Virus record (IMG/VR): IMGVR_UViG_3300030329_003997
Location: 1 to 47,592 of that record
Direction: 5' to 3' (one strand)
From: a virus
Length of the DNA stretch: 47,592 nucleotides
The position numbers and the translations under genes are program-made. This document shows, piece by piece, positions 99 through 42,455 of the stretch. The notes beneath the pieces were generated by a model, which saw only the letters and a list, made by a program, of their open reading frames with translations, was not told the DNA's origin and searched no databases. Each line of letters starts with the position of its first letter. Position 1 is the first letter of the stretch.

Positions 99-564
99 CG
101 GCGTCGACCACCGACACCACGCGCCAGAACTGGCCGTTGAGGACATCCCCCATTTCACCGTCGACACCTTCGATGTAGACGAGGTTGCCCGCCTCGTAGC
201 CGTGGTAGGCCACCGTAACGACCGCCTGCGAAGCGCTGGTGATGTTGGTGATAGCCAGTTCGTCCTCAAGCACTCGGCCACCGAAGGCCGACATCGCGAA
301 GTAGGCCTGCCCCATCTCGATAGCATAGGCCTGCTCGCTGGAGAACTGGAAAGGGATCAGGCGCACGTTGTTGCTGGCGTCATCCTCCAGCACTTCCGAG
401 ACGATCTCGAAGCCGGGGCGCTTCTCCAGCCCGCCGAACTTCATCACCACGACATTGCGCGCGCGCTTGACTGCCGACCTCCACGCATCGACATCGTAGC
501 GGCCATAGAGTTGCGGCCCGATCTCGCCCTTCGAGAAGTTGGATTGCGGGCTGCGGAAGGCCAT
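1..564 (-). CDS. Tail nozzle (tubular protein B-like), N-terminal part; continues across contig ends
   Basis: The ATG is at 564-562, overlapping the adaptor stop (TGATG). The frame is open to base 1 and continues on the other end of the contig from 47493 to a TAA at 47397-47395, giving 220 residues when circularised. The product starts MAFRSPQSNFSKGEIGPQL and carries the family pattern GRYD...NVVVMKFGGLEKRPG...RLIPFQFS, seen at the N terminus of podovirus tail nozzle proteins. A beta-rich segment with E1-FCCH-like character follows (about residues 100-170). It ends in a Pro/Thr tract, nine glycines and YPGFDYDLE. In relatives this segment is fused to the rest of the nozzle; here the remainder is the next gene (45577-47391). 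Role: lower tail tube below the adaptor. The split is a real feature of the sequence as given. Confidence 0.85.
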   Translation of the reverse strand, partial: MAFRSPQSNFSKGEIGPQLYGRYDVDAWRSAVKRARNVVVMKFGGLEKRPGFEIVSEVLEDDASNNVRLIPFQFSSEQAYAIEMGQAYFAMSAFGGRVLEDELAITNITSASQAVVTVAYHGYEAGNLVYIEGVDGEMGDVLNGQFWRVVSVVDADNFKIDVNTGDVFFTGATGGATNSAPPTPTPTP

Positions 565-1199
565 CAGAGCAGGCCCTCACGAGCGAGTTCCGCTTCGGAG
601 ACGTAGCGGTCTTGGAAGTCGGGCGAGCGATTGCGTGCGTCGGCGATAGCGCGCCCTCGCGACATCTCTGCGGCGCGAGCCATCTGGTCGGCCAACTTGG
701 CATCCCGCTTGACCGAGAGAGCGAGGCGCGCGGCCAGTTCATCGACGGCGGCGCGGCGCATCAGCGGGCGAAGGTCTTGCGCGGTCAGGTTCTCGCGCGT
801 GTAGACGAGGATCGCGTTCTCGGTGTTGGTGTAGATTTTCCCGCTCTCGGCAAGAAAGCGGATGGGATAGGCGTCCTGCACCGGAAGCGTGTAGGGGCCG
901 CGCTCCGGCAGGCTGGTTGCTGCCTCTTCGGCTCCGCGAACCGCAATAGGGTCCGACATATCGCTCGGCGCGGCGTAAGCGTATTCCCACTCAGCAGGGC
1001 GGTCGTTGGCCGCCTGAGCCAGCGTCACGCGCTTCACCAGTTCCGGCCACTCGGTCCACTCGGCCATCTCTTCGAGCACGAGCGGAAGGTGGAAGGCCGC
1101 CTCGCTGGCCTCCGTCGAGGTCTCTTCGAGGCTTGCGATAGTCCCCTTGCCAATGCGCGAGACCGCTTCCTGCGCAATGGAGATGTCGGTGGTGCTCAT
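564..1199 (-). CDS. Head-to-tail adaptor (tail tubular protein A-like, T7 gp11 type)
   Basis: This 211-residue protein has the T7 gp11 family signature: an N-terminal helix reading ISIAQEAVSRIGKGTIASL followed by SLEETSTEASEA, then a long helical body. It has the expected length (T7 gp11 is about 196). Family proteins form the dodecameric ring between portal and nozzle. A good Shine-Dalgarno (AAGGAGG) lies 5 bases before the ATG. The gene is the first after a GATTCAAT motif (1229-1237) and is coupled to nozzle part A by TGATG at its end. Order adaptor-nozzle-gp13-gp14-gp15-gp16 matches T7. Family assignment is by motif and gene order; no structure was computed. Confidence 0.85.
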   Translation of the reverse strand: MSTTDISIAQEAVSRIGKGTIASLEETSTEASEAAFHLPLVLEEMAEWTEWPELVKRVTLAQAANDRPAEWEYAYAAPSDMSDPIAVRGAEEAATSLPERGPYTLPVQDAYPIRFLAESGKIYTNTENAILVYTRENLTAQDLRPLMRRAAVDELAARLALSVKRDAKLADQMARAAEMSRGRAIADARNRSPDFQDRYVSEAELAREGLL

Positions 1200-1228
1200 G
1201 CTGCCTCCTTGCCGCCACTGGGGCGCGG

Positions 1229-1237
1229 ATTGAATCG
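1229..1237 (-). promoter_or_regulatory. Late-unit motif A (CGATTCAAT) before adaptor gene
   Basis: On the minus strand the stop codon of the 286-aa protein (TGA) is followed directly by CGATTCAAT, about 30 bases before the adaptor ATG. It is one of four same-orientation copies (also 7104, 31717, 42447) in gaps that open late transcription units. The downstream half seen at the other sites is weak here (GGCAAG after 15 bases). Promoter, processing site or activator site are all possible; function is inferred only from placement. Confidence 0.5.
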
Positions 1238-3090: not shown

Positions 3091-4104
3091 TTACGAGAGC
3101 GCAGCTTCGGTGGAGAGGATGCTGTCATCCTCGCGGATCGGGATGCCGCGCCACGACATCACTTCCTGACCCATGAGTTCCATCGGGCGGAGACGGACGA
3201 AGCTGTCCGATGCGCCGCCGTTGGTGCCCAGCATGTCGAGGACTTCGAGCATCTGCCGGTTCATGTAGAGGACCGTGCGGCCATCTGCGGGCTTACCTTC
3301 GCCGTTGAACTTGTAGTGGCGGCGACCGTTCAGCGAGTAGTAGAGGTTGCGGAGCAGCGCGTAGACATCGACGTTGCCAGCCAGAGCCTCGCTCACGTCG
3401 ATGTTCGCGATGCGCCCGGTCGAGCGCCAGTCCTTGACCGTCAGGCCGACGTGCTGCTCGAACTTCTCTTCGCGGACGTAGTAGGCGTTGCCATCGGCGT
3501 CGAGAACGCGCTGGCGGCCCATGTCTTCCTGCGTGACGCCTGCGGTGATGCCCTCGGGCGTAATCATCGAAGCGTGGCCATCGCCGTGCGTGACCATCCA
3601 GATCGAGGTGTTGTCCGAGCCGCTCCCGCCACCAGCAACGACGCACGGGTTGGCCAGCGTATTGTAACGCGGGCCGAGGCCGTGGAACTTCTTGCCGTTC
3701 ACGTTCACGTCGGAATACCAGATCGACTGGCTGACTTCCTGCGCGATGGCTTCGAGGAAGCCGACGCCTTCGCTGCGGCGCATGGCAGCAGCCTTCTCGC
3801 CATACAGCTTGAGCAGGCGCTCATCGACGGTCGACAGACCCTCGACGAAGCCGGTCGTGTCTTCGACCTGCGTGTAGTTGCCCTTGCTCTGCGGGATGCC
3901 CTGATAGAGCGCGCCCCACGTCACCGAGGGCAGGCCGGTGCGAACGCCGACGACGTGCTTGGTGCCCTTGTTGGCGGTCATCACGTTCGCGTCCTGCATG
4001 AACGGCGTGAGGATGTGCAGTGCCTCAACGATCTCCCACATGCCGTCCCCACCGGACTTCATCTGGTCGATCAGGTTGAGATAGGTCGTGCCGAGAGTGG
4101 CCAT
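3091..4104 (-). CDS. Major capsid protein (BPP-1-type)
   Basis: At 337 residues it is the expected size for the HK97-fold capsid protein of BPP-1-type podoviruses. The start MATLGTTYLNLIDQM and the phrases ALHILTPFMQDA, VGVRTGLPSVTWGALYQG and FLEAIAQEVSQSIWYSDVN are characteristic of this capsid family. No N-terminal delta domain is visible, consistent with use of a separate scaffold, which is the gene immediately upstream. The cement protein follows. AAGGAAGGGAATAAGC before the ATG supplies a ribosome site. No protease gene was seen nearby. Confidence 0.85.
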   Translation of the reverse strand: MATLGTTYLNLIDQMKSGGDGMWEIVEALHILTPFMQDANVMTANKGTKHVVGVRTGLPSVTWGALYQGIPQSKGNYTQVEDTTGFVEGLSTVDERLLKLYGEKAAAMRRSEGVGFLEAIAQEVSQSIWYSDVNVNGKKFHGLGPRYNTLANPCVVAGGGSGSDNTSIWMVTHGDGHASMITPEGITAGVTQEDMGRQRVLDADGNAYYVREEKFEQHVGLTVKDWRSTGRIANIDVSEALAGNVDVYALLRNLYYSLNGRRHYKFNGEGKPADGRTVLYMNRQMLEVLDMLGTNGGASDSFVRLRPMELMGQEVMSWRGIPIREDDSILSTEAALS

Positions 4105-4123: not shown

Positions 4124-4888
4124 TTAATCCGTTTTGTAGCGGTCTTCCCAGCCGCTAACCTTTTCTTCGCTGGCCGAGTTCGACCGTGCGAAAGTTCCAT
4201 CCTCACCCGCCAGTTCGCCTAGCTGCCGGAAGGTGCGGATAACGTCGGGGTGATTGCCGAAGCCGCTCTCATCGAGAGCCTTGCGGAAGGGATGCCCCTT
4301 CGTGAAACCCATCGCATCGAGACCAACGGCAGCCTTCGCCACGCTTTCCTTCTGGTTCGAGCCGCCGATGTCGGGATCGGCCTTGAAGCTATCGAGCCAT
4401 TCCTTGCGCTGCGCAGCGCCCGCGTCGATGACCTGCTGGATCGCCGACTGCTGGCCGTTGGCAAGCATCTTCTGTGCGAGCGGCATCAGCTTGTTGGCCT
4501 GCTCGTTCGAGAGGTTCATCTCGCGCAGAACCGGATCAGCCTCGGCCACCAGTTCCTCGTCGAGCGAGATGTCGTTGCCCTCGGCGTCCTTCAGCGAGAA
4601 CTCGTATTTCTCGGGCGCGCCTTCCGCTTCTTCAGCGTCATCGCCGCCCTCGTCACCTTCGCCTTCGCCTTCGCCTTCGCCAGCATCGTCGCCGCCATCA
4701 CCAAGGAGTGTGCCCTCGGTGTCGTCACCGCCCTTGTCGGCGGCGGCGTCGTTGGTGTCGGGCGACTTGCCTGCGTCGCTTTCAGCGGTCGCGTCCGTAG
4801 TGGTCGCGGCATCGGTTTCAGCGCTCGGCGTCGTCGTCGAGGTCGTCGTATCGGTCGTAGTCGTCGTGTCGAGGGGTTCGTCTGCCAC
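4124..4888 (-). CDS. Putative capsid scaffold protein
   Basis: This 254-residue acidic protein precedes the capsid gene, the standard scaffold position. Residues 1-95 are low complexity: a Thr/Asp-rich stretch, then Asp/Gly/Glu repeats (GEGEGEGDEGGDDAEE). Residues 95-254 are helical and more conserved in style (EKYEFSLKDAEGNDISLDEEL, ALAQKMLANGQ-like, KEWLDSFKADPDIGG, ALGAMGFTKGHPFRKAL-like), as in other phage scaffolds. The C-terminal basic segment probably contacts capsid. Its start overlaps the upstream gene by 71 bp. Confidence 0.7.
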   Translation of the reverse strand: MADEPLDTTTTTDTTTSTTTPSAETDAATTTDATAESDAGKSPDTNDAAADKGGDDTEGTLLGDGGDDAGEGEGEGEGDEGGDDAEEAEGAPEKYEFSLKDAEGNDISLDEELVAEADPVLREMNLSNEQANKLMPLAQKMLANGQQSAIQQVIDAGAAQRKEWLDSFKADPDIGGSNQKESVAKAAVGLDAMGFTKGHPFRKALDESGFGNHPDVIRTFRQLGELAGEDGTFARSNSASEEKVSGWEDRYKTD

Positions 4889-5183
4889 TGGGTTTCTCCT
4901 TGGGGTTCATGGCTTCACGGAGGACTGCATCAAGCGTGGCGATGGCGGTGCCATCGGGAGAGCGCAGCACATCGGGCTGCCCTTCTTCTGCCATCAGCAG
5001 TATTTCGTGCCCCAAGCTGCGGCGTCCCTCATGCCATTCGAGGCATTGGTCACGCACTGAGCGCCCATCGGCAGCAGTGTTATTGCTGACGATCCCGGCG
5101 CTTTGAATCGCGTCGTAGAGGAAGCGCAGGAACTCGGGTCGCGAAAGCAGGAACTCGGCGTCTTGAGCGGTGCAGGTTGTCAC
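4818..5183 (-). CDS. Bbp19-like head protein
   Basis: This 121-residue protein has the pattern LLSRPEFLRFLYDAIQSAG ... EWHEGRRSLGHEILLMAEE, which resembles the Bbp19 domain (BPP-1) with its FLxRLL...GRRxLGxxLL signature. It sits between portal and scaffold as in BPP-1. The C terminus is rich in Asp, Arg and Tyr and overlaps the scaffold start. The molecular role is not known for the family; position suggests head assembly. Confidence 0.7.
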   Translation of the reverse strand: MTTCTAQDAEFLLSRPEFLRFLYDAIQSAGIVSNNTAADGRSVRDQCLEWHEGRRSLGHEILLMAEEGQPDVLRSPDGTAIATLDAVLREAMNPKEKPSGRRTPRHDDYDRYDDLDDDAER

Positions 5184-7054: not shown

Positions 7055-7103
7055 GGTTGCCTCCTGTGTCTGGAGGCTCGGACCTACGCCGGGGGTGCTC
7101 TCG

Positions 7104-7112
7104 ATTGAATCG
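7104..7112 (-). promoter_or_regulatory. Late-unit motif B (CGATTCAAT) before pre-portal/portal unit
   Basis: The minus strand reads GCGATTCAAT beginning two bases after the CCA of the tRNA-like sequence and 50 bases before the predicted ATC start. After 15 bases comes CGTAGG, resembling the second half found at motifs C and D. It opens the head transcription unit. Function is inferred from position and recurrence. Confidence 0.55.
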
Positions 7113-7113
7113 C

Positions 7114-7187
7114 TGGCACGGGAGGAGGGACTTGAACCCTCACGGTGCGGTTTTGGAGACCGACCGGCTCAACCAGCGCTCACCCGC
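7114..7187 (-). tRNA. Divergent tRNA-Trp(CCA)-like sequence
   Basis: The 3' half is tRNA-like in every respect. It has a T arm GAGGG-TTCAAGT-CCCTC, an anticodon loop CTCCAAA with anticodon CCA (Trp), and an encoded CCA end. An acceptor GCGGGTG pairs with CTCCCGT except for one U-U. The D arm is poor: only a three-pair GCT/AGC stem with a five-base loop, and positions 8-9 are AG instead of TA. The anticodon stem continues past the fourth pair only with a bulge. It may be a functional but divergent phage tRNA, or a captured host tRNA 3' end such as an old attachment site. It lies between the early-unit terminator and motif B. Confidence 0.5.
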
Positions 7188-7261: not shown

Positions 7262-7298
7262 AAAAAGGGGGCCGGTCCAATGGAGAAAGACCGGCCCC
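7262..7298 (-). terminator. Strong intrinsic terminator of the leftward early/packaging operon
   Basis: A perfect 10-bp stem GGGGCCGGTC (7268-7277) pairs with its complement at 7289-7298, with an 11-base loop. On the minus strand five T (7266-7262) follow. It is about 40 bases past the last small gene after TerL and before the tRNA-like sequence, so it should end the long leftward transcript. The stretch 7188-7261 holds no gene, only G/C tracts that could form a second, weaker hairpin. Confidence 0.9.
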
Positions 7299-11336: not shown

Positions 11337-11551
11337 AGGGTCCAGATGATACCGGCGAGGCCGATTGCGACGATGCCGCTGATCCCGTGGAAGAACGCGT
11401 TGCGGTCGAGAGCGGCGATTGATGCGTCACGGTCGGAGCCGGGAAAGGCATCTTTCAGGCGGCGCACATAGATGTTGGCGAAGACCCAGTTCACGGCGCA
11501 ATAAGCGGCGATGAAGCTGAGGGCCACGGGGATAATCTGGGAGAGGTTCAT
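11333..11551 (-). CDS. Two-helix membrane protein
   Basis: This 72-residue product has hydrophobic helices at about 5-24 (IIPVALSFIAAYCAVNWVF) and 55-71 (GISGIVAIGLAGIIW), joined by a charged loop. Topology suggests an inner-membrane hairpin. It could be a superinfection or early membrane protein, or a holin-like protein, but it lies in the early operon far from the lysis cassette. Function unknown. Confidence 0.6.
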   Translation of the reverse strand: MNLSQIIPVALSFIAAYCAVNWVFANIYVRRLKDAFPGSDRDASIAALDRNAFFHGISGIVAIGLAGIIWTL

Positions 11552-11880
11552 TTGACGCTCCTGTAGGGCTTGCGGTCGGTGTGACAGGTGCGCCCCTTCA
11601 TCCCTCGGGGGACGTGCTTGCGGTTGGTCTTGCGGTCTGGGTGCGGCGCGGTGCTCTGTCCGGTCTTAATGATCTCTACCTCTCTGGCGCGCTGGTAGCG
11701 GGTGACGCGGATCAGGCCCTTGGTTTCGAGCATCTTCACCACGGTCGGAGCGACGCTTGTTGAGTTGCATCCGAGTTCCATTTCGATGTCGAGGTTGGAG
11801 GGGCATGGCTTGTTGTCGCGGGCCGCCGCTTCGATCATCCGGTATGTGATGGTCTCGAACTCGTTCAACTCAGTCTGCAT
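11548..11880 (-). CDS. Winged-helix DNA-binding protein
   Basis: This 110-residue protein has a winged-helix pattern at about 10-75: MIEAAARDNKPCPSNLDIEMELGCNSTSVAPTVVKMLETKGLIRVTRYQ, with recognition helix around STSVAPTVVKML and a wing RYQRAREVEI. The tail is Lys/Arg/His-rich. LexA-type N-terminal DNA-binding domains look similar. A strong GGAGG lies before its ATG. It probably regulates phage or host transcription; a candidate late activator, given its basic tail and position before the packaging genes. Confidence 0.65.
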   Translation of the reverse strand: MQTELNEFETITYRMIEAAARDNKPCPSNLDIEMELGCNSTSVAPTVVKMLETKGLIRVTRYQRAREVEIIKTGQSTAPHPDRKTNRKHVPRGMKGRTCHTDRKPYRSVK

Positions 11881-13659: not shown

Positions 13660-14172
13660 TTACTCCGGTTGGGGGTGGGCGAGCGCGGGGTAGTGAGCGA
13701 ACAGCGCGGCGAGCGAAGACTTGGCGTCATAGTGGCTGATGAAAACACCCCCGTGTTCTATCCAACGATGCCGGTGCTGCGGCCAATCGTCGATCAGCAC
13801 ATCTCCTGCGTTCGCGTGGTCGCGTTTGTCCGCACTGCGGCACGTGATAATTGGCACGCCGGGGAAGTGCCGCGCTGCCCACGCAACCTTTTGCCCCTGC
13901 GCCCAATTGCCGCGCGGGCACCCGGTCAGAATTGTGGGGCAAAGATGCGCCACCCCCTCATACAATTCCATTGCGTCGGACATGAGCGGAAGAGTGCCGT
14001 AGAAGTCCGTTTCGTTCTCAAGTTCATGCCAGAACTGCTTGGAGCCGACCTGCACTTCATATTGGCGCGGGGGCACACCCCACAGCAATTCACCAGCCCT
14101 GTCGAAGTCGGCAAGGACGCCATCGCAATCAAGAAAGATGCGCGGCCCACCCTCGGTCTGTCGGCTATTCAT
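13660..14172 (-). CDS. HAD-family 5'-nucleotidase-like protein
   Basis: The 170-residue product starts at ATG 14172, six bases after AGGAGG. Motif I IFLDCDGVLADFD (Asp nucleophile plus DGV), a later Thr segment ILTGCP (motif II) and the acidic motif GDVLIDDW (motif IV) define a HAD phosphatase close to the deoxyribonucleotidase 5'(3') group. It probably hydrolyses nucleoside monophosphates to shift pools during phage DNA synthesis. No thymidylate synthase or kinase lies nearby. Confidence 0.8.
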   Translation of the reverse strand: MNSRQTEGGPRIFLDCDGVLADFDRAGELLWGVPPRQYEVQVGSKQFWHELENETDFYGTLPLMSDAMELYEGVAHLCPTILTGCPRGNWAQGQKVAWAARHFPGVPIITCRSADKRDHANAGDVLIDDWPQHRHRWIEHGGVFISHYDAKSSLAALFAHYPALAHPQPE

Positions 14173-14635
14173 CAACGCCTCCTTTGAGTGACCTGATGGC
14201 ACGGGCGATGCCTTCGGCGTCTAGTTTCGAGTTGACGTAGTAATCAGCCCAATGATCCGCCACCTTCGCAGCCTCTTCCAGCGCTACATCCCTATCGGAG
14301 AGGGCGGCGAGGATGCGGTCGCGAAGGTCGGACGAAATGCGAACGTGGCTGTCGCCCTTCTCCCCGGTGTCCACGTTCAGGACCAGCGTGTATTCGGGGC
14401 TATCCCGCAACTCCCTCACCAGCGCGCTATCGGCCTTTGGGGCGGGACGGGCGTTCCATGCGGCGATTGCTTCATCTGCGCTGTCGTAGAACGGGGCTTC
14501 AATGTTACACCCGTAGCACTGCACACGCCGAGAAGGACCGGAGTTATCCGACCCCTCAGCAGGATCGCAAAGCAGCCCCAAGTTCTCGCCGCTGGCCCTG
14601 CAAAACGGGCACGGCTTCAATTCATCCGCCATCAT
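14165..14635 (-). CDS. Lar-like restriction-alleviation zinc-ribbon protein
   Basis: The 156-residue product starts at ATG 14635 (MMADELKPCPFC), overlapping the upstream stop. Residues 1-62 have the Lar family signature ELKPCPFC ... VQCYGCNIEAPFYDSADEAIAAWNAR, with two CxxC pairs binding zinc. The C-terminal part (65-156) is helical. In the Rac prophage, Lar lowers type I restriction; for most phage members activity is untested. The extra C-terminal region may add function. Confidence 0.7.
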   Translation of the reverse strand: MMADELKPCPFCRASGENLGLLCDPAEGSDNSGPSRRVQCYGCNIEAPFYDSADEAIAAWNARPAPKADSALVRELRDSPEYTLVLNVDTGEKGDSHVRISSDLRDRILAALSDRDVALEEAAKVADHWADYYVNSKLDAEGIARAIRSLKGGVDE

Positions 14636-14841
14636 CAATCTCCAAACTCTCTGCAAATATCCTCGAAGCGCGGGAGCATCTTGCGTCCGTCCGCTTCTGC
14701 TGCCTTGCGTCCTCGCGCTGTAATCGCTGCTCGCAATTGCGCCTGTTCGCGCTCGATGCGCTTGAAGGCGGCGATCTGCTCGGCAAGCGAGGGTTCTGCG
14801 CCTGCTTTGACCAAGCGGGGCTTGTGGGCGCGGGTGGTCAT
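14635..14841 (-). CDS. Hypothetical small helical protein
   Basis: The 68-residue product is MTTRAHKPRLVKAGAEPSLAEQ..., mostly one long helix IAAFKRIEREQAQLRAAITARGRKAA, ending FEDICREFGD. No family recognised. Start and stop overlap the neighbours. Confidence 0.55.
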   Translation of the reverse strand: MTTRAHKPRLVKAGAEPSLAEQIAAFKRIEREQAQLRAAITARGRKAAEADGRKMLPRFEDICREFGD

Positions 14842-15146
14842 GACAGGTTCTCCAACCTCCGCTCACGATATTGCTCGTATCTGTAGTCGGCTTCCTCGGC
14901 CTCGCGCTCGGCCCAATCCTCTAGCGCGCGTCCAGTGGCCTCCTCGAAAACCGCACCCTCTTCATCTTGCGAGAGAAAAACAGCCTTGCCGGTCTTGGCA
15001 TCGTCAATGCGGATAACCTCGACCTCTGCTCCCTCAGCGGGCTGCCAGTATGTCGCCGGAACTGGCGGGGTCATGGAATATGTCACCATGATCTCCGCCC
15101 CGCGCTTGCCGACAGTGGTGTAGAAAGTGAACTCGTCCACCATCAA
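14838..15146 (-). CDS. Hypothetical protein
   Basis: The 102-residue product has an N-terminal beta sheet (FTFYTTVGKRGAEIMVTYSM, EVEVIRIDDAKTGKAVFL) and a charged C-terminal helix rich in Glu, Arg and Tyr. It lies directly after the putative helicase loader and may belong to the replication group, but nothing specific is seen. Confidence 0.55.
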   Translation of the reverse strand: MMVDEFTFYTTVGKRGAEIMVTYSMTPPVPATYWQPAEGAEVEVIRIDDAKTGKAVFLSQDEEGAVFEEATGRALEDWAEREAEEADYRYEQYRERRLENLS

Positions 15147-31666: not shown

Positions 31667-31716
31667 CAGAAATGCGCCTTTCCTGTTCGCGCCTTCTAGG
31701 CGGCCCCCGTGCAGCT

Positions 31717-31725
31717 ATTGAATCG
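31717..31725 (-). promoter_or_regulatory. Late-unit motif C (CGATTCAAT) before tailspike/lysis unit
   Basis: The minus strand has CGATTCAAT 6 bases after the giant gene stop and about 50 bases before the tailspike ATG. After 17 bases comes CTAGAA. Same orientation and placement as motifs A, B and D. The 65-bp gap holds no other feature. Confidence 0.55.
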
Positions 31726-31731
31726 CCCGCC

Positions 31732-34700
31732 TCAGTCCTCCGACACCCTACCTTTCGTTAGGCCCTCGAACCATTCGCTCATGTCGTCAGGGTCTTGGTC
31801 CCCTTCCGAGACATCGACGATGAACTGAGCGGCGCTCGCGAACTGACCGGGGACGAGGCCGGTTGAATATCCGACGAACTCCAGCGTGTTCCGCGTCGCG
31901 CGCTTGGTCTCCTCGCCCTCGACGATGTTGCCTGCGTCGCCGACGACATTGATCGCGCTCTCGACCGCGCCCTGCGCCGGGGTGAAACGATAGCCAAAAC
32001 TGGGCGCATCTGTCGCGCGTGCCCACGCCGGTTCCCAGATGTCACGGACAACCGGGATCGGGCCGAGCATCTGGCTGACCATCTTGCGGAAGGCCCACCA
32101 CGCGGCGTCCTCGTCTTCCTCGGGGCCGCGCCCAGACAGGAACTCGGCGAGCAAGGGCGGAACAATGAAGAGGAAGAACGCCCGCGACAAGAGGCCGGGG
32201 AAGGCGGCAAGGTCACGGTCGCGCAGGGCGCGATTGCTATCCCACATGAAGCGGCGCTGGCGCTGATAGAAGGCGCTCATGTAGCTGTAGAACATCGTCA
32301 ACAGCTTCAGCGCGCCGCCCCACTGCCCGGTGCCCCGAGAGACAGCAGCCAAGTCCTTCGCTTCGGCGTTGCCTTGCGACAGGCGAACAGCCTTGTCGCC
32401 CTCGTAGATCGCCTGCTCTTCGGTCGCCCCGCCTTCGATGGCGCGGTTGTAACCCCCCATCCACGTCGGGATGGAGACCATGCGGTCCATGTAGCCGATG
32501 CCGTGGAAGGCGAACCGCTTGGCGCTGGTCAGAGCGTCGGTGGCCTTACGCTGGGCACTAGGCCGAGCGAGGTTGCGCAGTTCTGCGTTGATGTCGCGAT
32601 CAAGCGTCTCGACGCGCGAGCGCATCTCCGCCGAACGGCCCATGACGAAGTTGAATGTGTCGATGGGGTTGGCGCTCGCCTTGGCGATCTCCGCAGTCAT
32701 GCGCGCAGCGCCGACATACTCCATGCTGTTCGAGAAGCCCGCAAGCTGCGTCATAATTGTCGTGAAACGGAAGCCCATACCCACGACAGTTGCGTTCGCC
32801 CGTGCCTTGGTGAAGAACCGGCCCCACCCCTCGTTGCCCGCGCGGTCGTGCGCCCACTGGTTCGCGATGAACTTCAGCCAAGGGCGGAACTGGGCGGAGT
32901 ATTCAGGGCCGAGAACCGCATCGGCTTCATCCATGACCTCGGGGTCCGACAGGATGCGGTTGGCGTTGATAATCACCTCGCGGTGGGTGATGTCGTGGAT
33001 GACCTCACCCATGTGCCGGTTGATGACGCCGAGGTCGAGCAGGATCGGGCGCTTGACCGTTTCCGAGCGCTCCTTCGTCGCCGAGGCGCGCGTCGTCGCC
33101 CTGACGGTCTTCGCGCTCATAAGGTCGTCGCCCAGTTCCTCGTAACCCTTCGCCTTGCGGTCCTTCGTCGTGTCGTAGATGGCCGGGTAATAGCCGCCGC
33201 GCAGCGCACCGAAGGGCGTCTGGATCGCGGTCGCCTCGATCTTCTCCGGCTCGACGCCGTTGACCCGGCGCTCCATCGCCGCGATCTCCGGCCAGAGTTC
33301 GTTGATGATGTCCCAAGTGCGCTGGACGAACTGCCACTCGCTTTCACTCAGCGTGTCCATCAGGAACTTCTCGACCTGACTTTCGCGCAGGCCGTAGCCG
33401 TCGACGAGGCGCTGCCGGTTGCCAAGGTTGCCCCAGTTGAGCGCCATCGCGATCACCTGCTGGCGGGTCAGCACATCGGGCTTGCCGGTGCGGATGTCGA
33501 ACCACCCCGGCGTGATCTTTTCGTTCCAGCGCTTCAGCGTCTCGTCGTCGATAGTCTCCATGTTCGCGCGCATCTTCGAGTAGAAGTCGCGGAGCATGTC
33601 GCGCTCACGGGAGGCCGCGTCCGAGATGGGGCGGAAGATGAGCCGGTTGAAGACGCCATCAGGCTTGCCGTTGTCGAGCCGGTCGAAGATTTCCTCCATC
33701 TTCATCAGCGCCGCATCGGCGTTCGCGACGCCCGACTTCACGCGCTCCCAGAACGAACGATCAGACCCGGTGGGATCGAAGCGCCCCTTCGGCTCCTTGC
33801 GGCCAACCGCGTCGGCCTGCTCGCTAATCTCGCGCTTGATGGCTGCGAAGTCGCGCTGGTCCCGATTGTCGAGGAGGCGCTGCTTGAACCGGCCAATGTG
33901 GACGACCTGCTTGACCGCCTCGTCGAGACCGAGAAGCTGCTCGATGGGCAGGCGGGTCCAATGCGTCGTGCCGATGCGTGCCTCGAACTCGGGAGGAACC
34001 ACGATCTCGAAGCCCTCGGCTTCCTGCGCGGCAACCCACGCCGACCACTGGCCCTGCCGGTCAATGCTGGCTTGCGAGCGCGCCTTGAGGTCGACGGCCT
34101 CCATCAGCGCATGTGCCTGCTCCAGATAGTCCTGATCGACCGACGCCATCGTGCGTTTATCGGCGACCTTCTTCATGCGAGCACGAGCCGCCTCGATCTC
34201 CTCGTTGGCAGCCTTGGCTTCAGCGTAGAGTGCGCTGGAGAGCATTTGCTGCTGCTTCGCGCGCAGGGCGGCTTCGTGGTCTCCAGCGGCCAGAGCGAGT
34301 TCCGCCTCCTTGCCCGCGCGCGTGATAGCGCGCTGGTGGCGCTGGAGGGCAGCCGGTGACGCCTCGGACGAATAGTCGCCGGAGCGCACGCGGCCACGCG
34401 CCCACTCGCGGGCCATCTTGTATGGCGTCGGGCGCTGACCAGTCTTGCGCGAGAGCGCCTTGATCTCGGATGCCTGCACCTCGCCCTGCCGCTCGCCGTG
34501 GAGGGCGGCGCGAGCCTCCTCCTCGATCTGGCCATCGGTCATCGGATCACCGAACTCAGCCGCCATCTGCATGTCGACACGGTTCTGGATCGTGCGGGTC
34601 TTAAGGTTGCGCTTGTCACCGCCGTCGACCGCCGCCTGCTGCTCTGCGTGCGCGGCGATCAACGCCTCGACCATCGCGGTCGCGGTGCTGTAGCCTGAAG

Positions 34701-37700
34701 CTTCGGCGATCATCTCGGGGTCGGAGCCATTCTCCTGCCATACAGGCGGGACGCGCACCGGCAGGCGGTCGAACACGTCTTCGCCGAAGGTCTCGACCAG
34801 CCACACGCGGTCCATCCGGTCGCGGCGCAGCGTCGACAGCGCGCGGAACAGGGGTTCACCTTCCACCGTGTCGGTGACGCGCTCCTCCACCTCACGGCGG
34901 CGGTTCTGGTAGAGGCGCTTCTCGCGGTCGCGGATCGCCTTCATCGCCTTTTCCAGCACCTTTCCAGATGCCTCGGCGCGCGCGTTGGCGACCTGCTCCT
35001 GATAGCTGGCGAACTCGCCCTCGCTCATACCTGCGTCGGCGGCGCTGTCGAACAGGGCGTTGAGCGCCTGCTGCTCGCGAGCGATCTCGATCTCCTCGTC
35101 GGAGGCAATCAGGCGGTCGAAGACCTCTCTGATCTCGGGCGTGATCGGCGCGCGCAGCCCGGTGACGCTCTTGTAGATGTCGACCAGCCAGTTGCGGAAC
35201 GCCTCGAAGGCGCGCTGGAGGCCGATGGCCGGGGCCTTGCCCTCGCGGAAGTAGCGCTCGCCGCCTCGTGCGAACATCTCGTGAGCGCCGACCGGGATGA
35301 TGCCGTCACGCACCTCGTGGCCATTATCTTTGAACCACGCAAGCACGGTTTCGTAGTCGCGCTTCACCTGCTCGCTCGCGTTCGGATCGGCGGCGTCCTG
35401 CTTCAGTTCCTCCAGCCAGAGGTGCGAGACCTCGTGCAGCAAGGTCGAGAGGTTACGGTTCTGGAACAGTTCGATCAGCGCGCCATCGGCGGTGTCACCA
35501 TCGAACAGGATGCGCCCGCGCGGCCCGTCGCGGTGGTCGGGCTGGAACAGCGGGAAGCCGTTGACCGCAGCCTCGCGCAATTCGGGCGTGATGTCGAAGC
35601 CGAGGTTGGTCGGAGCGGTGCGCTCCACTTCGCGCAGTTCTGTTTGCAGCGCGCGATATTCCTCGATCATCGGAACCATCGCATCCCAGTCTGCGGTCTT
35701 GTCGAGCATCGCCTTCTTCTGGTCGAGTTCGGCCTGCCACTCGGCAAGGCTGTCTTCGGCCCACGTCAAGCTGCCGATCTCCAGTTCGCTTTCGGGAACT
35801 CCAGCTTCCTTCTGCGCCAGCGCCGCCTCGTAGTCGGCGCGGCGCTCGGCGATCTGGCGCTCGCGATCCTCGATCCAGTTCTGCGTGCGGCGGCGAGCCT
35901 CCTCGGTCTGCTCCTTGATCTTTTCCAAAGCGCCAGCCGCATTGGCTACGCCAGCACTGTCGGCGCGAAGGGCAGCCATCCGTTCGACGATCTCGTCTCG
36001 CCTTGGCGACGCCCCTTCGGCCACCGTGCGCCCCTCCACGCGCAGCGGCTTCACCTTCACCTTGTAGGGTTTGAGGAACTTGTTCGTCATGTTCGGCAGG
36101 TTGCGACCGTAGAACCAGTCCACGTTGTCGTTCATGCCGCCGTTGTTCTCGCCCTGCTTGACCCACGCGACCTGATCGAAACCCTCGGCAGCCGCCCACG
36201 CGGTCACGCGCTTCATCACCAGCACGGGCCAAGTGTCCTTGAACGGCGCATCGGGGATCGAGCCGCCGCGACGGAGGTTGTCGAGTTCGTTCTGGCGAAG
36301 GCTGCGTTCGCTGGCGAGTTGTCGCCACTTGGCATACTGGAGGTCGGCTGCCTCGCGCTCTGCGCCAGCCTCGTAAGGGCCGAAATCATTGGCATCGAGC
36401 GCACGCCTAATCATTCCGGCTGCATGGAGAAGCTGCATGAAGCTGCCTCTCTCAATCACGTCGCTCTCGACATAATCCGCCCGCAACTCGTTGCGCTTCA
36501 CTCTGACGAAATTCTCGACGGCAGCGGCTCCGTCTTCATGGTCGCCATAAGTCTCGATGGCTTCTTCCCTGTATCCATCGAGCACGCGCTTCAGGGCAGG
36601 ACGCAAAGCCTTCTGGAGTTTTGCGAACACCACCTTGGTCTCTTCATCCACCACTTCGAGCGCCTTGTCGGCACCAGCGAGGGCCTTCTCCTGCTCGCGA
36701 TACTTCTGGGGGTCTGCTCCCCGCTCGACGGCGTTCTCGAACTCCCGCGCCCTGTCGTGCTCGTTGTCGGCCTGCTCGAAAGTAGCCAGCGCCTCGACAA
36801 TCTTAGGATCGGACTGGCCGCGCTGTCCCCGAGCCGCCGCGAGAATATCGGTATCGCCGTAGCCGCGATCCATCGGGATTTGCGCGTCCATGGTTTCGTT
36901 CGCGATCTCGCGCGCCTTGATCGCAACAGGCATCGTCAACTCGCGTAGCGCAGCCATCGCCTGATTGCGCTTCTCGCGAGCAGATTGCTCCAGCGCCTCC
37001 GCCTCTTCTAGATCGGCGTCGGATGGCCCCCGATTGTAGCCTTCGTCCCGGCCCATCTGGTGCCAGTCCGATTGGATTTCATCGAGAAACAGGATGCGCT
37101 CACGGTTAGGCCCCCGAGCCTCGAAGAAGCGCGCATGTGCGACGACGCCCTGATCCTCCTGCGCATCCCAGTGGGTTCCCGTGACATAATCGTTCGGGTT
37201 TCCGCCCTCGCCGGGGGGGAGGGTGATGAGGAGTTCGCGGTAGGACTGGTCGCCATTCCCCGACAGGGAGTAGTCCTGCCACTTTACGTCGCCATCGCCG
37301 CTCTCGCGCTCGCGCTCCAGCAGGTATTCGACTACCTCGGAGCGAACCTCGTTTTCCCATTCGGAATACGCCTCGCTCTGGGCGCTATTGTTCATCTCGT
37401 CGGCCTCGGCCTGCGCATCCTCCTCGCTGTCGTAATCGGTGCTGTCGGCACGATAGCCACCAGCCTCGTAGATAACCCACGTTGTCACAGGTTCGCCGTC
37501 CTCGCCCTCCTCGGCGCGCTCGGAGACGTAGAAGGGGCTTTCCCAGTAATCGTAGAACTCGTATTCGCGGTCCGCGATGGTCTCGTCGACCGACGCCGGG
37601 TCAAGATCGTCCTCGGTGATAGGCTGGAGCACCACCTCGCGCACGACGATCCCCCCGCGCTGGATGGTCTCGATGACCTGCGCCTTCTCGACCGGACCCT

Positions 37701-40700
37701 TCTGCACCTCCAGCCAGTCGAGCAGGCCGGTCCATTCCAGTTCCTCCTGCTTGACGCCGGGGGCCTTCTTCAGCGTGGCGATCCACTGCTGGGCGGGCGC
37801 GCGATTGGCAGAGACAGCCTCAGCCGCGCGTTCGAGCGCGGAGTAGAAGATCGTGGCTTGTTCGTAGGCGCGGATCGCGATGCGGTTGTCGTCGAACACG
37901 ACGTAGTTGAACGTGCCGTCTCCAGCGTCGCGCGAGCCGCCGTCGAGATACTTGATCCCGGCGATGCCTGCGTGAAGCATGTCGAGCGAGGCGAATTTCT
38001 GCGCCGTCGAGTGACTGCCAGTGGAGGGCATCATTTCGCGCACCATGCGGTTGTAGATATCTGCCCCGGTGTCTTCGAGTTCATATTCGCGCCGCTGGGA
38101 AAGGAAGTCGCTCGCCTGCTGCTTCACATATTCCCCGGCCCCGCCCATCGCGTCGAGGGCGTCATCGTCGATACCGTTCTTCTCTGCGTGCTTGCGGGCG
38201 CGGTCGTAGAGATCGCTCTCGTTGTCGATCATCATGCCGATGCCGCGCGTCTCGCCACCATTCAGGCGCAGCGCCTTGCGAACAATGGCGCGGATCGCGG
38301 TGTCCTCAATGCTCTCGATGTCGGGCTTCGTGACCGGATTGGCGAGGCCCATATCCTCAAGAGCCTTCCTTACAGGCTCCGGCTGTTCGCGCAGCGGGCG
38401 ATCCCACAGCAGGTATTCATCGTCCTCGGGTATCTCGACTTCGTAGAGGCGACCTCTCTGGGTTTCAGCACCGGCCTCGACAAGATCGTTGATGATGTCC
38501 TCTGCGGTGCTGTGCATATTCGCTTCATCGGGAGAGGCATTGTAGGGTGCCACCCCCGCCTGAAAAGCCGCATCCTGAAGATCAATCTTGCCGTCTATCC
38601 GGTCAGCGATCTCAAGCGCGTTGATAACAATGCGGGCCACCTCCCGCCCCCGATCACCATGACCATCCATACCGGCGAAGTCGGCAACCGCTTTCCGCGC
38701 TTCTTCAGACTGCCGCACAGGAAGCGTGTGGCCATCAGGAAGAACGAGCGCCTCGCCGCCCAACTCGTCCCGATAGAACTGAGCGATCTCCTTCTTTCCG
38801 GCGAAGTAAAGCCCCCATCCATACGCCTGCGCGCCCTCGCCCGTGCCGATGGCGTCGAGCGAGAAGCGGTCGAAGATGTGCGGGCTGCCGTGGTAGGCGG
38901 GCTGGAATAGTTCGCGCCCCGTGCCGAACGCCTCGCGCAGCCGCGCCTCATTGGCATAGCTGATCGGCTCCAGACCTTCGAGGTCGGCGGGCTGGTCCCC
39001 GGTAGAGACGCGCTCCATCGCCGAACGCTGCGGGCGGGCGGTGGTGCTGTCGCTGGTGGGAGCCACCTTGCTCTGGAGCATGATGACGACAGGCACGCTG
39101 GTGATGCCTGCGCGCTTCAGCATCGTCATGCGGTGGCGGCCCTCGTGGCCGACGACGCGCATCTCCTCGGGCAGCGTGATCGTCGCATTGTCGTCGCTGT
39201 CGATGTCGAGCACCTGCCGCTCAGGTTCCACCTGCGCGATCAGGAAGATCGGCTGGCTATTGGCTCGCATACGGTCGAAGTCGACTTCGCCGCCGCTGTA
39301 TTCCTCGCCCTGCGTGACGCGCTCTTCGATCAGCGCGCGGCCCTGCTCGGATGCGGTTAGGCCGAGGAACTCGTCGGGCGACATGCGGACTGCATACGCC
39401 TTGGTTCGCTCGGGTTCGCTCGGGTAGGCAAAGGCGCGCAAGAGGTCGTCGACGCGCTGCTCGGTCCAGCCGATGCTGGTGCCTTCTGCGGCAGAAGTCG
39501 CAACTTCACCGGGGGCGAGGACTTGCTCGGGCTGCTCATAGATCGGGGCCATATCCGCGACCTTGCCCTCTGTCGAGGTCCACGCGGGCATCAGGCCGGT
39601 CTTCTGGTCGGCGAAGACGGTCTCCTCGACCGGCGCGAAGCGGTTGGTCTCGCCATGCGGGCCGAAGTTGAGCCAGCTATTCTGGCCGCGCGTCTCGGTG
39701 GTCATCGCGCCCAGCGCCGCCCCGGTGTAGAGCCGCGCGTGCGCCTGCCATGCGTTCTCTTCGCCGTCGTAGCGGAAGCCCGCGCCCTCAAGCCCGTGGC
39801 CGAAGGCGTCATGCACCGCGCGGAACAGGTCGTTCGCGAGCACCGGGACATCTTCACCGGCAGCGTTCTTCCACGTCAGCCCGGTGTCGGTCAGGAGCGG
39901 GTTCTCAGCGGGGTCGAAGGTGTCGTCGGAGCCGAAGCCCTCGGAGGTCGAGAACACGCCCATGCGCTGCGCATCGCGCAGTTCGCGCAGCGCGTTGAAC
40001 GGCGACTGCGCGTATTCGCTGTCGGGGTCGAGGAAGTAGAACTCGTAACCCATCTCGACCAGCACGTCATACTGCGCGCGGGTCTGGGCCATCATGTCGG
40101 CGTAGGCTTCGGCCACAGCCGGATCGCTGGGCGAATGCTCCATCTCCTCGTAGGCCTGAGCGAGACGCGCCGCGCGCTCCTCGTCGAAGGTCTCCTTGGT
40201 GACGTATTCGGCCTGACGCCGGTAGTCTATTCCGGTTTGTTCGGCGTAGGCCTCTGCTGCTGCGACGATGCCTTCGATGGGGCCGTGGAAGCCTTTCGCG
40301 CGCGGTGCGCCATCGAGCGCCTCGCTCCTTCGCGGAGAGCCGCTTCCTCCTCGCTGATCTCCCGCCCGGTATTCACGTCGGCCATCGTTTACTCCTTGCT
40401 CTGCCAGCTTGGAGATGACCTCCCCAAGCTGCTCATCGGTGAGGTCGCTCGGGGTCCAGCCCCGGCGCTCCAGAATTGTGGTGAGTTCGCCCGCAGCGGC
40501 CCGCGCACGCGACGTGCTGCCCTGCTCGTTCCCACGCAGGATGGCAAGCACCATGTCCTGCTCCTGCGCTGCCAGCGACCGCTGGAGTTCGGGCGGCAGG
40601 ACCATGCGGACATTGAAGTCCTCGACAGCCTGCTCGGCGTCGCGGCCCGACCGGCTTTGCCTGTTGATGGCGCGAGCGGCGAACAATTCGGCCATCTGCT

Positions 40701-42414
40701 TGGCCTGATAAGGCGCATAGCCACCGTCGTTCTCCAGCTTTTCCTGCAACGACGACACGAGGCGTTCGCGCACCCCCTGCTGTTCGCCCTCAACGCTCTG
40801 CCGTGTGGACACCGCAGCATCCATCTGGGCCGCGATCTCCTCCTGCCCTTCCTCGAACGCCTGCGCCTCGCGCACGGTGTCTGCCCCCGGCGTCAGGCGC
40901 ATGTCGTCCTTCAGGGTTTCCCAAGCGCGCGTCCCCGGCATGGAGGTCAGGGCGATCTCGACCGGAACCGCGATGTCGCCGCCAGCCGCCGCCGCATCGA
41001 GCACGTCGTCGGCGAAGGGGGCGAGGGGGTCGCTTTCGGGATTGTAGTCGTCCGACTGCATGTATTCGCGGGCGGCCTTGCCGTCCACGAGCACGCTGGT
41101 CAGGCCGCGCTCCTCAGCCATGTCGCGCATCAAGCGCGCGAAGCCTTCGGGGTCGGTCTCGCGCATCGCGCTGCCGCCCGCACTATCCATAAGTTCACGC
41201 AGGGCCTTGCCCTCGGCCTTTGCTTGCCGCGCCATGATCGCCTTGTTCGCCATGCCGAGCGAGACCTCGGCGGTGCGCCCGATCCCGCGCGTCAGGGCCA
41301 CGTTGAGGCCGGTGCCCGAGACCGTGCCGACCAGCGTAGCAAGGGCCGCCTCCGGTCGTTCGGCCAGATAGTCGCCGAAGGTCTTGTCGCGGTTGTCGGG
41401 CAGGACGCCCCAGTCCACGAAGTCCTGCGTGATGGTCGCGATCTGCTCGCCGGGGATTTCCTGCCCCAGCGTTCGCATCAGCGTGCGCCCGAATGGCGAC
41501 TTATTGACGATGGCGTCGACCAGCGTGCTCGCGGGCATCTTCTCGGTCAGATACTCGATCCCGCCCTGCACCGCGCCGTAGGCCAGCGCGCTCGTGCCGG
41601 TGAGGCCCTGCGCGCGGGCGCGCTCCAGCGAGGAGCCAGCCACGGCGGCAGCCGGGATGCCAGCCGCCACGCGCGGGTTTCGTGTCAGGGCGGCAACGAC
41701 GGACACCGGGACGAACTCGGTGCCAGCCAGAGCGGCCTCGACCCAGAAGTTGTCCGAGCGGTTGGCCGCGCGCGTCGCGTCGGCGTATTCGATGAACTGG
41801 CGCGTAGTGTCGCGGCGCTCGCTCTGACGGCGCTCCAGCCATTCGTCGGGGTCTTCACGGAAGCGAACGCCAAGCTGCTCGCCGACGATCTGGATCGGGG
41901 CGCGCACAGCGTAGCCAGCATAATCGGCGGCTTGTTCGAGCGGGTCGGTGATCGAGGAGCGCAGGCCCCCGGCAGCCTCGCTCGTGCCTGCAACACCAAG
42001 ACGCGCGGGCAGCTTGCCGAAGAAGTCCGCGAACCAACCGACCTTCTCTTGTTCGTCGACCAGCGAGGCGGCGGTCGCGAGGTCGCCCTGCTCCAGAGCC
42101 TTGGCGACGGCAGGCGAATTGTCGGACAGTTCGAGCAGGCGCTTCGCGCGGACCATGCGCTGAGCGGCCTCGACATCCGAGATGACCTCGGACGGCTTGA
42201 CCGGCGTGCCTTGCGTCAGCTTCTTCGCCTTGGCGGCAGTCTGCGCATCGGGGGAGGCAGCGAGCGTCTGGGCCTGCTGCTCGCGCTCGATCTTGCGCTG
42301 GCGTCGCATCTCTTCGGCCAGCGGGTTGAACGTGGTTTCGGAGGGCAAAGGGCTGCCGCTGTTAGCGGCGTTCTGCCTCATTGCTTCGCGCAAGGGGTTG
42401 TTGGTCGGGGGCAT
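31732..42414 (-). CDS. Giant polyvalent DNA-ejection protein (gp16-like position)
   Basis: This 3560-residue protein occupies 22 percent of the genome, in the T7 gp16 position at the end of the ejection gene run. Visible parts: helical N terminus (1-440); an FGHGLEG segment LFRAVHDAFGHGLEG (863-877) with TTETRGQNSW; a ParB-like GHEGRHRMTMLKRAGITSVPV (1089-1108); an ADP-ribosyltransferase-like YHGSPHIFDRFSLD...AYGWGLYFA (1174-1205); a EIQSDWHQMGRDEG block (1779-1792) and PFKDTWPVLVMKR (2057-2069), both typical of large phage polyvalent proteins; a HExxH metalloprotease LLHEVSHLWLEE (2325-2336); and a C-terminal region (2900-3560) like ejection proteins, with GGYYPAIYD (3073-3081) and a hydrophobic helix at 3411-3427. 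The ATG has no clear Shine-Dalgarno. It is probably injected with DNA, forming part of the trans-envelope channel and delivering effector domains that act on host proteins. Domain calls are by motif only. Confidence 0.8.
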   Translation of the reverse strand: MPPTNNPLREAMRQNAANSGSPLPSETTFNPLAEEMRRQRKIEREQQAQTLAASPDAQTAAKAKKLTQGTPVKPSEVISDVEAAQRMVRAKRLLELSDNSPAVAKALEQGDLATAASLVDEQEKVGWFADFFGKLPARLGVAGTSEAAGGLRSSITDPLEQAADYAGYAVRAPIQIVGEQLGVRFREDPDEWLERRQSERRDTTRQFIEYADATRAANRSDNFWVEAALAGTEFVPVSVVAALTRNPRVAAGIPAAAVAGSSLERARAQGLTGTSALAYGAVQGGIEYLTEKMPASTLVDAIVNKSPFGRTLMRTLGQEIPGEQIATITQDFVDWGVLPDNRDKTFGDYLAERPEAALATLVGTVSGTGLNVALTRGIGRTAEVSLGMANKAIMARQAKAEGKALRELMDSAGGSAMRETDPEGFARLMRDMAEERGLTSVLVDGKAAREYMQSDDYNPESDPLAPFADDVLDAAAAGGDIAVPVEIALTSMPGTRAWETLKDDMRLTPGADTVREAQAFEEGQEEIAAQMDAAVSTRQSVEGEQQGVRERLVSSLQEKLENDGGYAPYQAKQMAELFAARAINRQSRSGRDAEQAVEDFNVRMVLPPELQRSLAAQEQDMVLAILRGNEQGSTSRARAAAGELTTILERRGWTPSDLTDEQLGEVISKLAEQGVNDGRREYRAGDQRGGSGSPRRSEALDGAPRAKGFHGPIEGIVAAAEAYAEQTGIDYRRQAEYVTKETFDEERAARLAQAYEEMEHSPSDPAVAEAYADMMAQTRAQYDVLVEMGYEFYFLDPDSEYAQSPFNALRELRDAQRMGVFSTSEGFGSDDTFDPAENPLLTDTGLTWKNAAGEDVPVLANDLFRAVHDAFGHGLEGAGFRYDGEENAWQAHARLYTGAALGAMTTETRGQNSWLNFGPHGETNRFAPVEETVFADQKTGLMPAWTSTEGKVADMAPIYEQPEQVLAPGEVATSAAEGTSIGWTEQRVDDLLRAFAYPSEPERTKAYAVRMSPDEFLGLTASEQGRALIEERVTQGEEYSGGEVDFDRMRANSQPIFLIAQVEPERQVLDIDSDDNATITLPEEMRVVGHEGRHRMTMLKRAGITSVPVVIMLQSKVAPTSDSTTARPQRSAMERVSTGDQPADLEGLEPISYANEARLREAFGTGRELFQPAYHGSPHIFDRFSLDAIGTGEGAQAYGWGLYFAGKKEIAQFYRDELGGEALVLPDGHTLPVRQSEEARKAVADFAGMDGHGDRGREVARIVINALEIADRIDGKIDLQDAAFQAGVAPYNASPDEANMHSTAEDIINDLVEAGAETQRGRLYEVEIPEDDEYLLWDRPLREQPEPVRKALEDMGLANPVTKPDIESIEDTAIRAIVRKALRLNGGETRGIGMMIDNESDLYDRARKHAEKNGIDDDALDAMGGAGEYVKQQASDFLSQRREYELEDTGADIYNRMVREMMPSTGSHSTAQKFASLDMLHAGIAGIKYLDGGSRDAGDGTFNYVVFDDNRIAIRAYEQATIFYSALERAAEAVSANRAPAQQWIATLKKAPGVKQEELEWTGLLDWLEVQKGPVEKAQVIETIQRGGIVVREVVLQPITEDDLDPASVDETIADREYEFYDYWESPFYVSERAEEGEDGEPVTTWVIYEAGGYRADSTDYDSEEDAQAEADEMNNSAQSEAYSEWENEVRSEVVEYLLERERESGDGDVKWQDYSLSGNGDQSYRELLITLPPGEGGNPNDYVTGTHWDAQEDQGVVAHARFFEARGPNRERILFLDEIQSDWHQMGRDEGYNRGPSDADLEEAEALEQSAREKRNQAMAALRELTMPVAIKAREIANETMDAQIPMDRGYGDTDILAAARGQRGQSDPKIVEALATFEQADNEHDRAREFENAVERGADPQKYREQEKALAGADKALEVVDEETKVVFAKLQKALRPALKRVLDGYREEAIETYGDHEDGAAAVENFVRVKRNELRADYVESDVIERGSFMQLLHAAGMIRRALDANDFGPYEAGAEREAADLQYAKWRQLASERSLRQNELDNLRRGGSIPDAPFKDTWPVLVMKRVTAWAAAEGFDQVAWVKQGENNGGMNDNVDWFYGRNLPNMTNKFLKPYKVKVKPLRVEGRTVAEGASPRRDEIVERMAALRADSAGVANAAGALEKIKEQTEEARRRTQNWIEDRERQIAERRADYEAALAQKEAGVPESELEIGSLTWAEDSLAEWQAELDQKKAMLDKTADWDAMVPMIEEYRALQTELREVERTAPTNLGFDITPELREAAVNGFPLFQPDHRDGPRGRILFDGDTADGALIELFQNRNLSTLLHEVSHLWLEELKQDAADPNASEQVKRDYETVLAWFKDNGHEVRDGIIPVGAHEMFARGGERYFREGKAPAIGLQRAFEAFRNWLVDIYKSVTGLRAPITPEIREVFDRLIASDEEIEIAREQQALNALFDSAADAGMSEGEFASYQEQVANARAEASGKVLEKAMKAIRDREKRLYQNRRREVEERVTDTVEGEPLFRALSTLRRDRMDRVWLVETFGEDVFDRLPVRVPPVWQENGSDPEMIAEASGYSTATAMVEALIAAHAEQQAAVDGGDKRNLKTRTIQNRVDMQMAAEFGDPMTDGQIEEEARAALHGERQGEVQASEIKALSRKTGQRPTPYKMAREWARGRVRSGDYSSEASPAALQRHQRAITRAGKEAELALAAGDHEAALRAKQQQMLSSALYAEAKAANEEIEAARARMKKVADKRTMASVDQDYLEQAHALMEAVDLKARSQASIDRQGQWSAWVAAQEAEGFEIVVPPEFEARIGTTHWTRLPIEQLLGLDEAVKQVVHIGRFKQRLLDNRDQRDFAAIKREISEQADAVGRKEPKGRFDPTGSDRSFWERVKSGVANADAALMKMEEIFDRLDNGKPDGVFNRLIFRPISDAASRERDMLRDFYSKMRANMETIDDETLKRWNEKITPGWFDIRTGKPDVLTRQQVIAMALNWGNLGNRQRLVDGYGLRESQVEKFLMDTLSESEWQFVQRTWDIINELWPEIAAMERRVNGVEPEKIEATAIQTPFGALRGGYYPAIYDTTKDRKAKGYEELGDDLMSAKTVRATTRASATKERSETVKRPILLDLGVINRHMGEVIHDITHREVIINANRILSDPEVMDEADAVLGPEYSAQFRPWLKFIANQWAHDRAGNEGWGRFFTKARANATVVGMGFRFTTIMTQLAGFSNSMEYVGAARMTAEIAKASANPIDTFNFVMGRSAEMRSRVETLDRDINAELRNLARPSAQRKATDALTSAKRFAFHGIGYMDRMVSIPTWMGGYNRAIEGGATEEQAIYEGDKAVRLSQGNAEAKDLAAVSRGTGQWGGALKLLTMFYSYMSAFYQRQRRFMWDSNRALRDRDLAAFPGLLSRAFFLFIVPPLLAEFLSGRGPEEDEDAAWWAFRKMVSQMLGPIPVVRDIWEPAWARATDAPSFGYRFTPAQGAVESAINVVGDAGNIVEGEETKRATRNTLEFVGYSTGLVPGQFASAAQFIVDVSEGDQDPDDMSEWFEGLTKGRVSED

Positions 42415-42446
42415 CGTGAAGCAGGTCTATGCCCCACACGCCCTCC

Positions 42447-42455
42447 ATTGAATCT
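42447..42455 (-). promoter_or_regulatory. Late-unit motif D (AGATTCAAT) before giant gene
   Basis: The minus strand reads TGA (stop of the gp15-like gene) followed directly by GATTCAAT, 33 bases before the giant gene ATG; CATAGA lies 15 bases after the motif and 11 bases before the ATG. If this were a promoter, the giant message would be leaderless or nearly so. Confidence 0.55.

Follow-up and report, generated by a model that had tools for sequence, protein, structure and literature searches.

In the middle promoters of bacteriophage T4, the phage protein MotA recognizes a short box that substitutes for the -35 element, and the host sigma-70 reads the -10 element. In alphaproteobacteria, GANTC is the target of the CcrM methyltransferase. 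Promoters of Caulobacterales under GcrA and CcrM carry a GANTC site within the promoter (PMC3667746, PMC7987155), and CtrA-controlled promoters have been described in phages of Alphaproteobacteria, with GcrA sites showing no positional asymmetry in that phage set (PMC9437464). Depletion of GANTC is known in pelagiphages; the part of that source drawn on here reports the depletion and makes no mention of a promoter on the remaining sites (PMC9516812).

Here, we report a repeated element in a virus record of 47,592 bases and 63% G+C (the window, i.e., the whole stretch of DNA that was analysed). The portal, major capsid, and terminase of the window are of the epsilon15/BPP-1-like podovirus types, with relatives in Bordetella phage BPP-1 and Caulobacter phage Jess A; no close DNA relative of the window was found among GenBank phages. 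Four copies of the octamer GATTCAAT are, with strong support from comparison, very probably late promoters, belonging to a podovirus that infects sphingomonads. Taken as a whole, the data are best explained by virus-specific late promoters that would be served by host RNA polymerase together with a phage activator, a reading to which we give a probability of roughly three in four. It resembles the T4 system in that a phage DNA-binding protein is proposed for the box and host sigma-70 for the -10; it differs in having GATTCAA rather than a TTGCTTTA-like box, a short TA as -10, late and not middle genes, and a LexA-like winged-helix protein as the candidate reader. MotA is not among the families or folds reported as matches to this winged-helix protein, which speaks to those matches and not to direct kinship. 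The GcrA/CcrM promoters are alike in the GANTC site within the promoter and in the alphaproteobacterial setting; however, the element here is GATTCAA and not YGAKTCK, its box lies at -35 with fixed spacing, and it is confined to phages. The CtrA-controlled promoters share with it the class of phages and the repetition of regulator sites at promoters, but those rely on the host regulator CtrA. With the pelagiphages, also alphaproteobacterial podoviruses, the common feature is the strong GANTC loss, whereas here the sites that remain are mostly the late promoters. Jess A, despite its related portal, capsid, and terminase, lacks both the GATTCAA site and a homologue of the winged-helix protein. 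The literature searched contained no previous description of the motif as a promoter of phages, and the element would define a phage-specific late promoter class, with a probable activator, for the sphingomonad podovirus family.

Late-strand sites in the window

The octamer GATTCAAT occurs in the window at 1229-1236, 7104-7111, 31717-31724, and 42447-42454 with no further copy, always on the minus (late) strand; shuffled sequence gives a mean of 0.77 copies, and at least four were reached in none of 100 shuffles. Each of the four is contained entirely in a late gap; these gaps account for about 10% of the late region. TGA precedes the copies at 42447 and 1229 at 0 or 1 base and the copy at 31717 at 6 bases, and the copy at 7104 is preceded by a tRNA-like sequence with a CCA end. 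The original prediction of four same-strand copies in late gaps, right after a stop codon or a tRNA CCA and ahead of gene starts, was thus borne out by exact counting, with the reservations on the tRNA and on one start codon given below. Its nine-base form, CGATTCAAT, fits three copies; the copy at 42447 reads AGATTCAAT.

The complete element is laid out as GATTCA(A), 18 bases, [T/C]A, 10 bases, CA, with GATTCAAT as the -35-like half. Position 1 is the G of GATTC; on the promoter reading, GATTCAA spans -37 to -31, A27 falls at -11, and +1 corresponds to position 38. The second element that had been noticed in three copies turned out to be exactly spaced, with an A at position 27 in the copies at 42447, 7104, and 1229 and one base later in the copy at 31717. 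A repeated bipartite element of fixed spacing precedes the late units, in the orientation of the late strand. Read as a promoter, it would consist of a -35-like box GATTCAA(T/C/G) at -37 to -31 and a -10 with T and A at -12 and -11, and transcription would start 11 bases past the -11 A, usually at CA.

The putative promoter of the 3560-aa giant protein (42417..42454, minus strand) has the octamer at 42454-42447, TA at 42429-42428, and a predicted start site at A 42417, and the ATG that heads this unit follows 3 bases on, at 42414. The site at 31686..31724 (minus) heads the unit that begins with a 756-aa tail protein (phrog_1640), with the octamer at 31724-31717, TA at 31698-31697 (one base farther than usual), a likely start at ~31686, and ATG at 31666. 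Before a small ORF and the portal gene, the candidate promoter 7074..7111 (minus) combines the octamer at 7111-7104, TA at 7086-7085, and a predicted start at ~7074, and it is found in the same place in relatives; the start codon after it is apparently ATC 7054 and not ATG, following AGGAGG. At the site before the tail protein gene 564-1199 (phrog_394; 1199..1236, minus), the octamer lies at 1236-1229, CA takes the place of TA with the A at 1210, and the predicted start, 1199, is the A of the ATG, i.e., the mRNA would be leaderless; AAGGAGG lies just upstream, and the position of the ATG is the same in relatives. Because CA replaces TA and AAGGAGG is kept, this gene may also draw on longer transcripts. 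At the four sites, scans for consensus promoters and terminators did not rise clearly above shuffled sequence, and none of the four was listed with a TTGACA-like -35 and a TATAAT-like -10, i.e., they are not canonical sigma-70 promoters by these scans.

Ahead of the 7104 site, an intrinsic-terminator-like hairpin (7262..7298, minus; 11 pairs followed by TTTTT; -25.2 kcal/mol, z -4.0) appears to close the terminase unit; it was not picked up by the consensus scan owing to its 9-base loop. With such a strong terminator hairpin just before it, 7104 looks like a true transcription-unit border. The tRNA-like element in between (7117..7187, minus; anticodon CCA, Trp) is marginal, with an Rfam tRNA score of 29.9 bits against a cut-off of 29 (E 1.4e-4), and ARAGORN called no tRNA at this place.

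A fifth copy, GATTCAAA, lies at 5102-5109 (minus) inside ORF 4818-5183, which follows the portal gene. Here the motif (5109-5102 of an element at 5072..5109) is coding (I-Q-S) with A27 at 5083, and both its place and the A at position 27 are kept in relatives. Elsewhere in the window, GATTCGAC at 27249-27224 (minus), one of the two GANTC sites other than GATTCAA, has TA exactly at 26-27 within an opposite-strand ORF, perhaps by chance.

The bipartite element in relatives

A capsid-protein search provided 12 related records and 4 bacterial genomes (2 Sphingobium and 2 Novosphingobium), and 8 records obtained later via the winged-helix protein or the motif pattern served as a second set; the 20 records together, with one near-duplicate left out, belong to the same podovirus family of sphingomonad viruses and prophages. 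GATTCAA recurs in the relatives in the same late gaps and on the late strand; an absence from these gaps, which would have refuted the original prediction, was not observed. In the first 12 records it was found 72 times on the late strand versus 3 times on the opposite one, and the aligned late-strand copies have A27 in 68/71, TA in 47/72, C37 in 47/71, and A38 in 37/71. The second set is similar (42 late-strand versus 4 opposite copies; A27 in 38/42, C37 in 30/42), except that A38 is less clear (16/42, of which 8 belong to an ATG). In the 20 records combined, in which homologous sites of different records are non-independent observations, A27 is present in 106/113 late-strand copies and TA at 26-27 in 75/113 against a background of 1.7%, whereas the opposite-strand copies have neither (0/7).

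The link between the two halves depends on the box itself. TA at 26-27 is lost with the point variants GCTTCAA (0/63), GGTTCAA (0/51), GATGCAA (0/35), GATCCAA (0/27), and GATTGAA (0/24); GATTCGA retains a -10 in 1/18. Some tolerance exists at the last A (GATTCAT has TA in 7/18), and nearly all other single-base changes abolish the link. The -10 stands at sigma-70 spacing, with 17 bases between TTCAAN and TA and the A at -11 in 106/113 copies, and the usual final T is not conserved. We consider that the main sigma factor of the host, as part of the RNA polymerase, would probably read the -10, and that a phage protein bound to GATTCAA may replace or support the missing TTGACA contact. The bases preceding the box are nearly uniform within a genome and differ among clades (GTC, nGC, or T at -1), as would be expected if a single protein reads all sites.

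An ATG falls exactly at position 38 in 12/72 copies of the first 12 records and 8/42 of the second set, 20 in total, most of them before homologues of the tail gene at window 564-1199, and it holds this position although the intervening bases have diverged. Since the predicted start coincides with the ATG in these 20 copies, leaderless mRNAs are implied; some mRNAs would begin at the start codon or no more than 3 bases from it.

One more coding copy, GATTCAAG...CCTAGTGTCC (G001 28449 and G010 24369, late-strand coordinates), is shared by many relatives, and the window does not have it; elsewhere in these genomes, CTNAG is depleted.

Confinement to phages and a candidate activator

The pattern belongs to the phages. 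In the four host genomes, 17 of 20 bipartite matches are inside the prophage, and among 200 genomes of the host family the strict pattern exceeds two copies only in the known prophage genome. A host sigma regulon was rejected as a source, the bipartite pattern being near chance in the host chromosomes outside the prophage. In a blind test on 94 Sphingobium genomes, clusters of the pattern appeared in five only (G013, G014, G255, G275, and G307), three of which (G255, G275, and G307) are further prophages located by motif clusters alone; two contigs with sparse sites (G221, G222) were treated as chance. All five clustered genomes encode the family portal, and in a panel of 20 of the Sphingobium genomes the winged-helix protein was found in exactly these five. 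In G245, which has a related but more distant portal (43%), the winged-helix protein was not found, and the 39.8 kb surrounding the portal gene contain no bipartite site. The temperate relatives reside in Sphingobium xenophagum, Sphingobium sp. Leaf26, and Novosphingobium rosa, i.e., in named bacteria, so that tests could be attempted.

The winged-helix protein of the window is a 110-aa predicted DNA-binding protein encoded at 11548..11880 (minus), just upstream of the terminase genes. In nine near-complete records it is the sole non-structural, non-packaging protein found in 9/9, with a size across records of 110-156 aa, and we regard it as the candidate activator because it is the only universal protein outside the head, tail, and packaging genes. 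Its AlphaFold model has a winged-helix core whose best PDB matches, albeit weak (E 3.7e-3), are LexA DNA-binding domains, and the weak matches in Pfam and NCBIfam point in the same LexA-type direction. LexA-type domains repress more often. The protein co-occurs with the sites, but in most records it accompanies the portal and tail genes, and the co-occurrence is partly plain kinship. The motif types agree with the trees of the winged-helix protein, the portal, and the tail, as simple linkage may also produce, and not with the capsid tree; the grouping of winged-helix proteins by motif type is indistinguishable from that of the portal tree, and tree discordance was set aside as proof of the link, with only the capsid tree disagreeing. 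On balance, the protein is a reasonably probable late activator. As the most likely binder of GATTCAA, this LexA-type protein would jointly activate the units for head, tail, giant protein, and tailspike.

Two side observations concern these trees and records. The tree of the capsid (window 3091-4104, minus) disagrees with those of portal, tail, and winged-helix protein on account of the G218 and G233 capsids, a conflict that we take as a sign of capsid gene exchange. The G008 and G009 records (L072, L075) each have two winged-helix copies.

Alternative readings and the GANTC overlap

The first five bases of the motif, GATTC, are a GANTC site. The window contains 7 GANTC sites versus 258 expected, a 37-fold depletion in which 97% of the expected sites are gone; every one of them reads GATTC on the late strand, 5/7 as part of GATTCAA. 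As a share of expectation, GANTC amounts to 7-14% in the close relatives G001-G003, 18-31% in temperate relatives, 24-38% in the sampled host chromosomes, 0.6% in Jess A (1 of 162), and 92% in a Vibrio relative. That the promoter causes the depletion was rejected, since Jess A is more depleted without the motif. Unusually, the few sites left are for the most part those of the late promoters. The original prediction had covered neither the overlap with GANTC nor the exact -10, and it mentioned no leaderless starts and no candidate regulator.

Could host proteins, or a different phage protein, read these sites? GcrA, a cofactor of the host sigma-70, would bind the CcrM-methylated GATTC and recruit RNA polymerase, so that a phage activator would be unneeded; GATTC is indeed a GANTC site, the GcrA gene is present in 4/4 host genomes of relatives tested, and an operon of a Brevundimonas prophage is GcrA-dependent (PMC7987155). 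However, Caulobacter GcrA prefers YGAKTCK (PMC7987155), and here AA comes next; GATTCGA, as stated, rarely carries the -10, and the other GANTC variants (GAATCAA, GACTCAA, and GAGTCAA) do so in 0/14. Outside the prophage, moreover, host chromosomes have the bipartite pattern no more often than chance predicts, and the GcrA gene was looked for in the phages and none was found. As the extended motif differs and the pattern is not enriched in hosts, host GcrA alone is quite unlikely. A phage-encoded sigma factor or RNA polymerase is an unlikely reader too, if a shade less so: the -35/-10 pair is unlike the host consensus, resembles extracytoplasmic-sigma spacing, and is confined to these phages, but the window ORFs tested against Pfam yielded neither a sigma nor a polymerase domain, the sole universal protein outside structural and packaging genes is the winged-helix protein of 110-156 aa, and the spacing and the A at -11 match sigma-70 geometry. 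Neither the giant protein nor the other ORFs scanned, some small ones being outside the scan, have a domain of a T7/N4-type single-subunit RNA polymerase.

The motif had also been proposed as an RNA processing site, alongside a late promoter or an activator site. That the sites lie between genes just past stop codons, one of them adjoining the tRNA-like element, fits processing or mRNA-stability sites at operon borders; against this, the distance to A27 and the CA at 37-38 are fixed, in the manner of -35/-10/+1 geometry, the ATGs exactly at position 38 in 20 copies fit initiation there, and the intrinsic terminator just ahead of the 7104 site also fits initiation. The promoter reading, with the activator site as part of it, is therefore retained, and processing is most improbable. 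Chance, or retention only through protein coding, hardly deserves credence. It draws on the fifth copy (5102-5109) and on the relatives' GATTCAAG...CCTAG copy in conserved coding stretches, but four intergenic copies stand against 0.77 expected, GANTC is otherwise depleted 37-fold, and the pattern replicates in further records. For the intergenic sites this reading is refuted by strand bias, by the A27/TA linkage, and by replication in the second set.

Returning to activator-dependent late promoters, it is conceivable, though doubtful, that they act as methylation-gated timers, i.e., that host CcrM would keep GATTC fully methylated while the activator would favour hemi- or unmethylated sites arising from rapid phage replication (or the reverse). 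Sequence-specific binding explains the data without methylation, because only GATTC, and not GAATC, GACTC, or GAGTC, carries the -10. If such a timer were true, late genes would fire only once genome copies outrun CcrM, and this would explain why a GANTC-purged genome keeps sites at its late promoters; the overlap with the CcrM site makes it a testable question whether phages use host cell-cycle methylation for late timing.

A few minor features of the window are recorded here. The giant protein (31732-42414, minus) has 3560 aa versus ~2000-2200 aa in relatives, with only a very weak match to an ADP-ribosyltransferase found in polyvalent proteins. Part of ORF 14165-14866 (minus) matches a Lar-type restriction alleviation protein at 28.0 bits, just below the cut-off of 28.6. 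The small 60-codon ORF between the 7104 site and the portal gene (7054-6872, minus) has its apparent ATC start after AGGAGG, and its homologues have ATC in six records (G001, G003, G225, G009, G226, and G218), ATT in three (G010, G006, and G233), and ATG only in G008; a rare start codon thus appears to be conserved in this ORF ahead of the portal.
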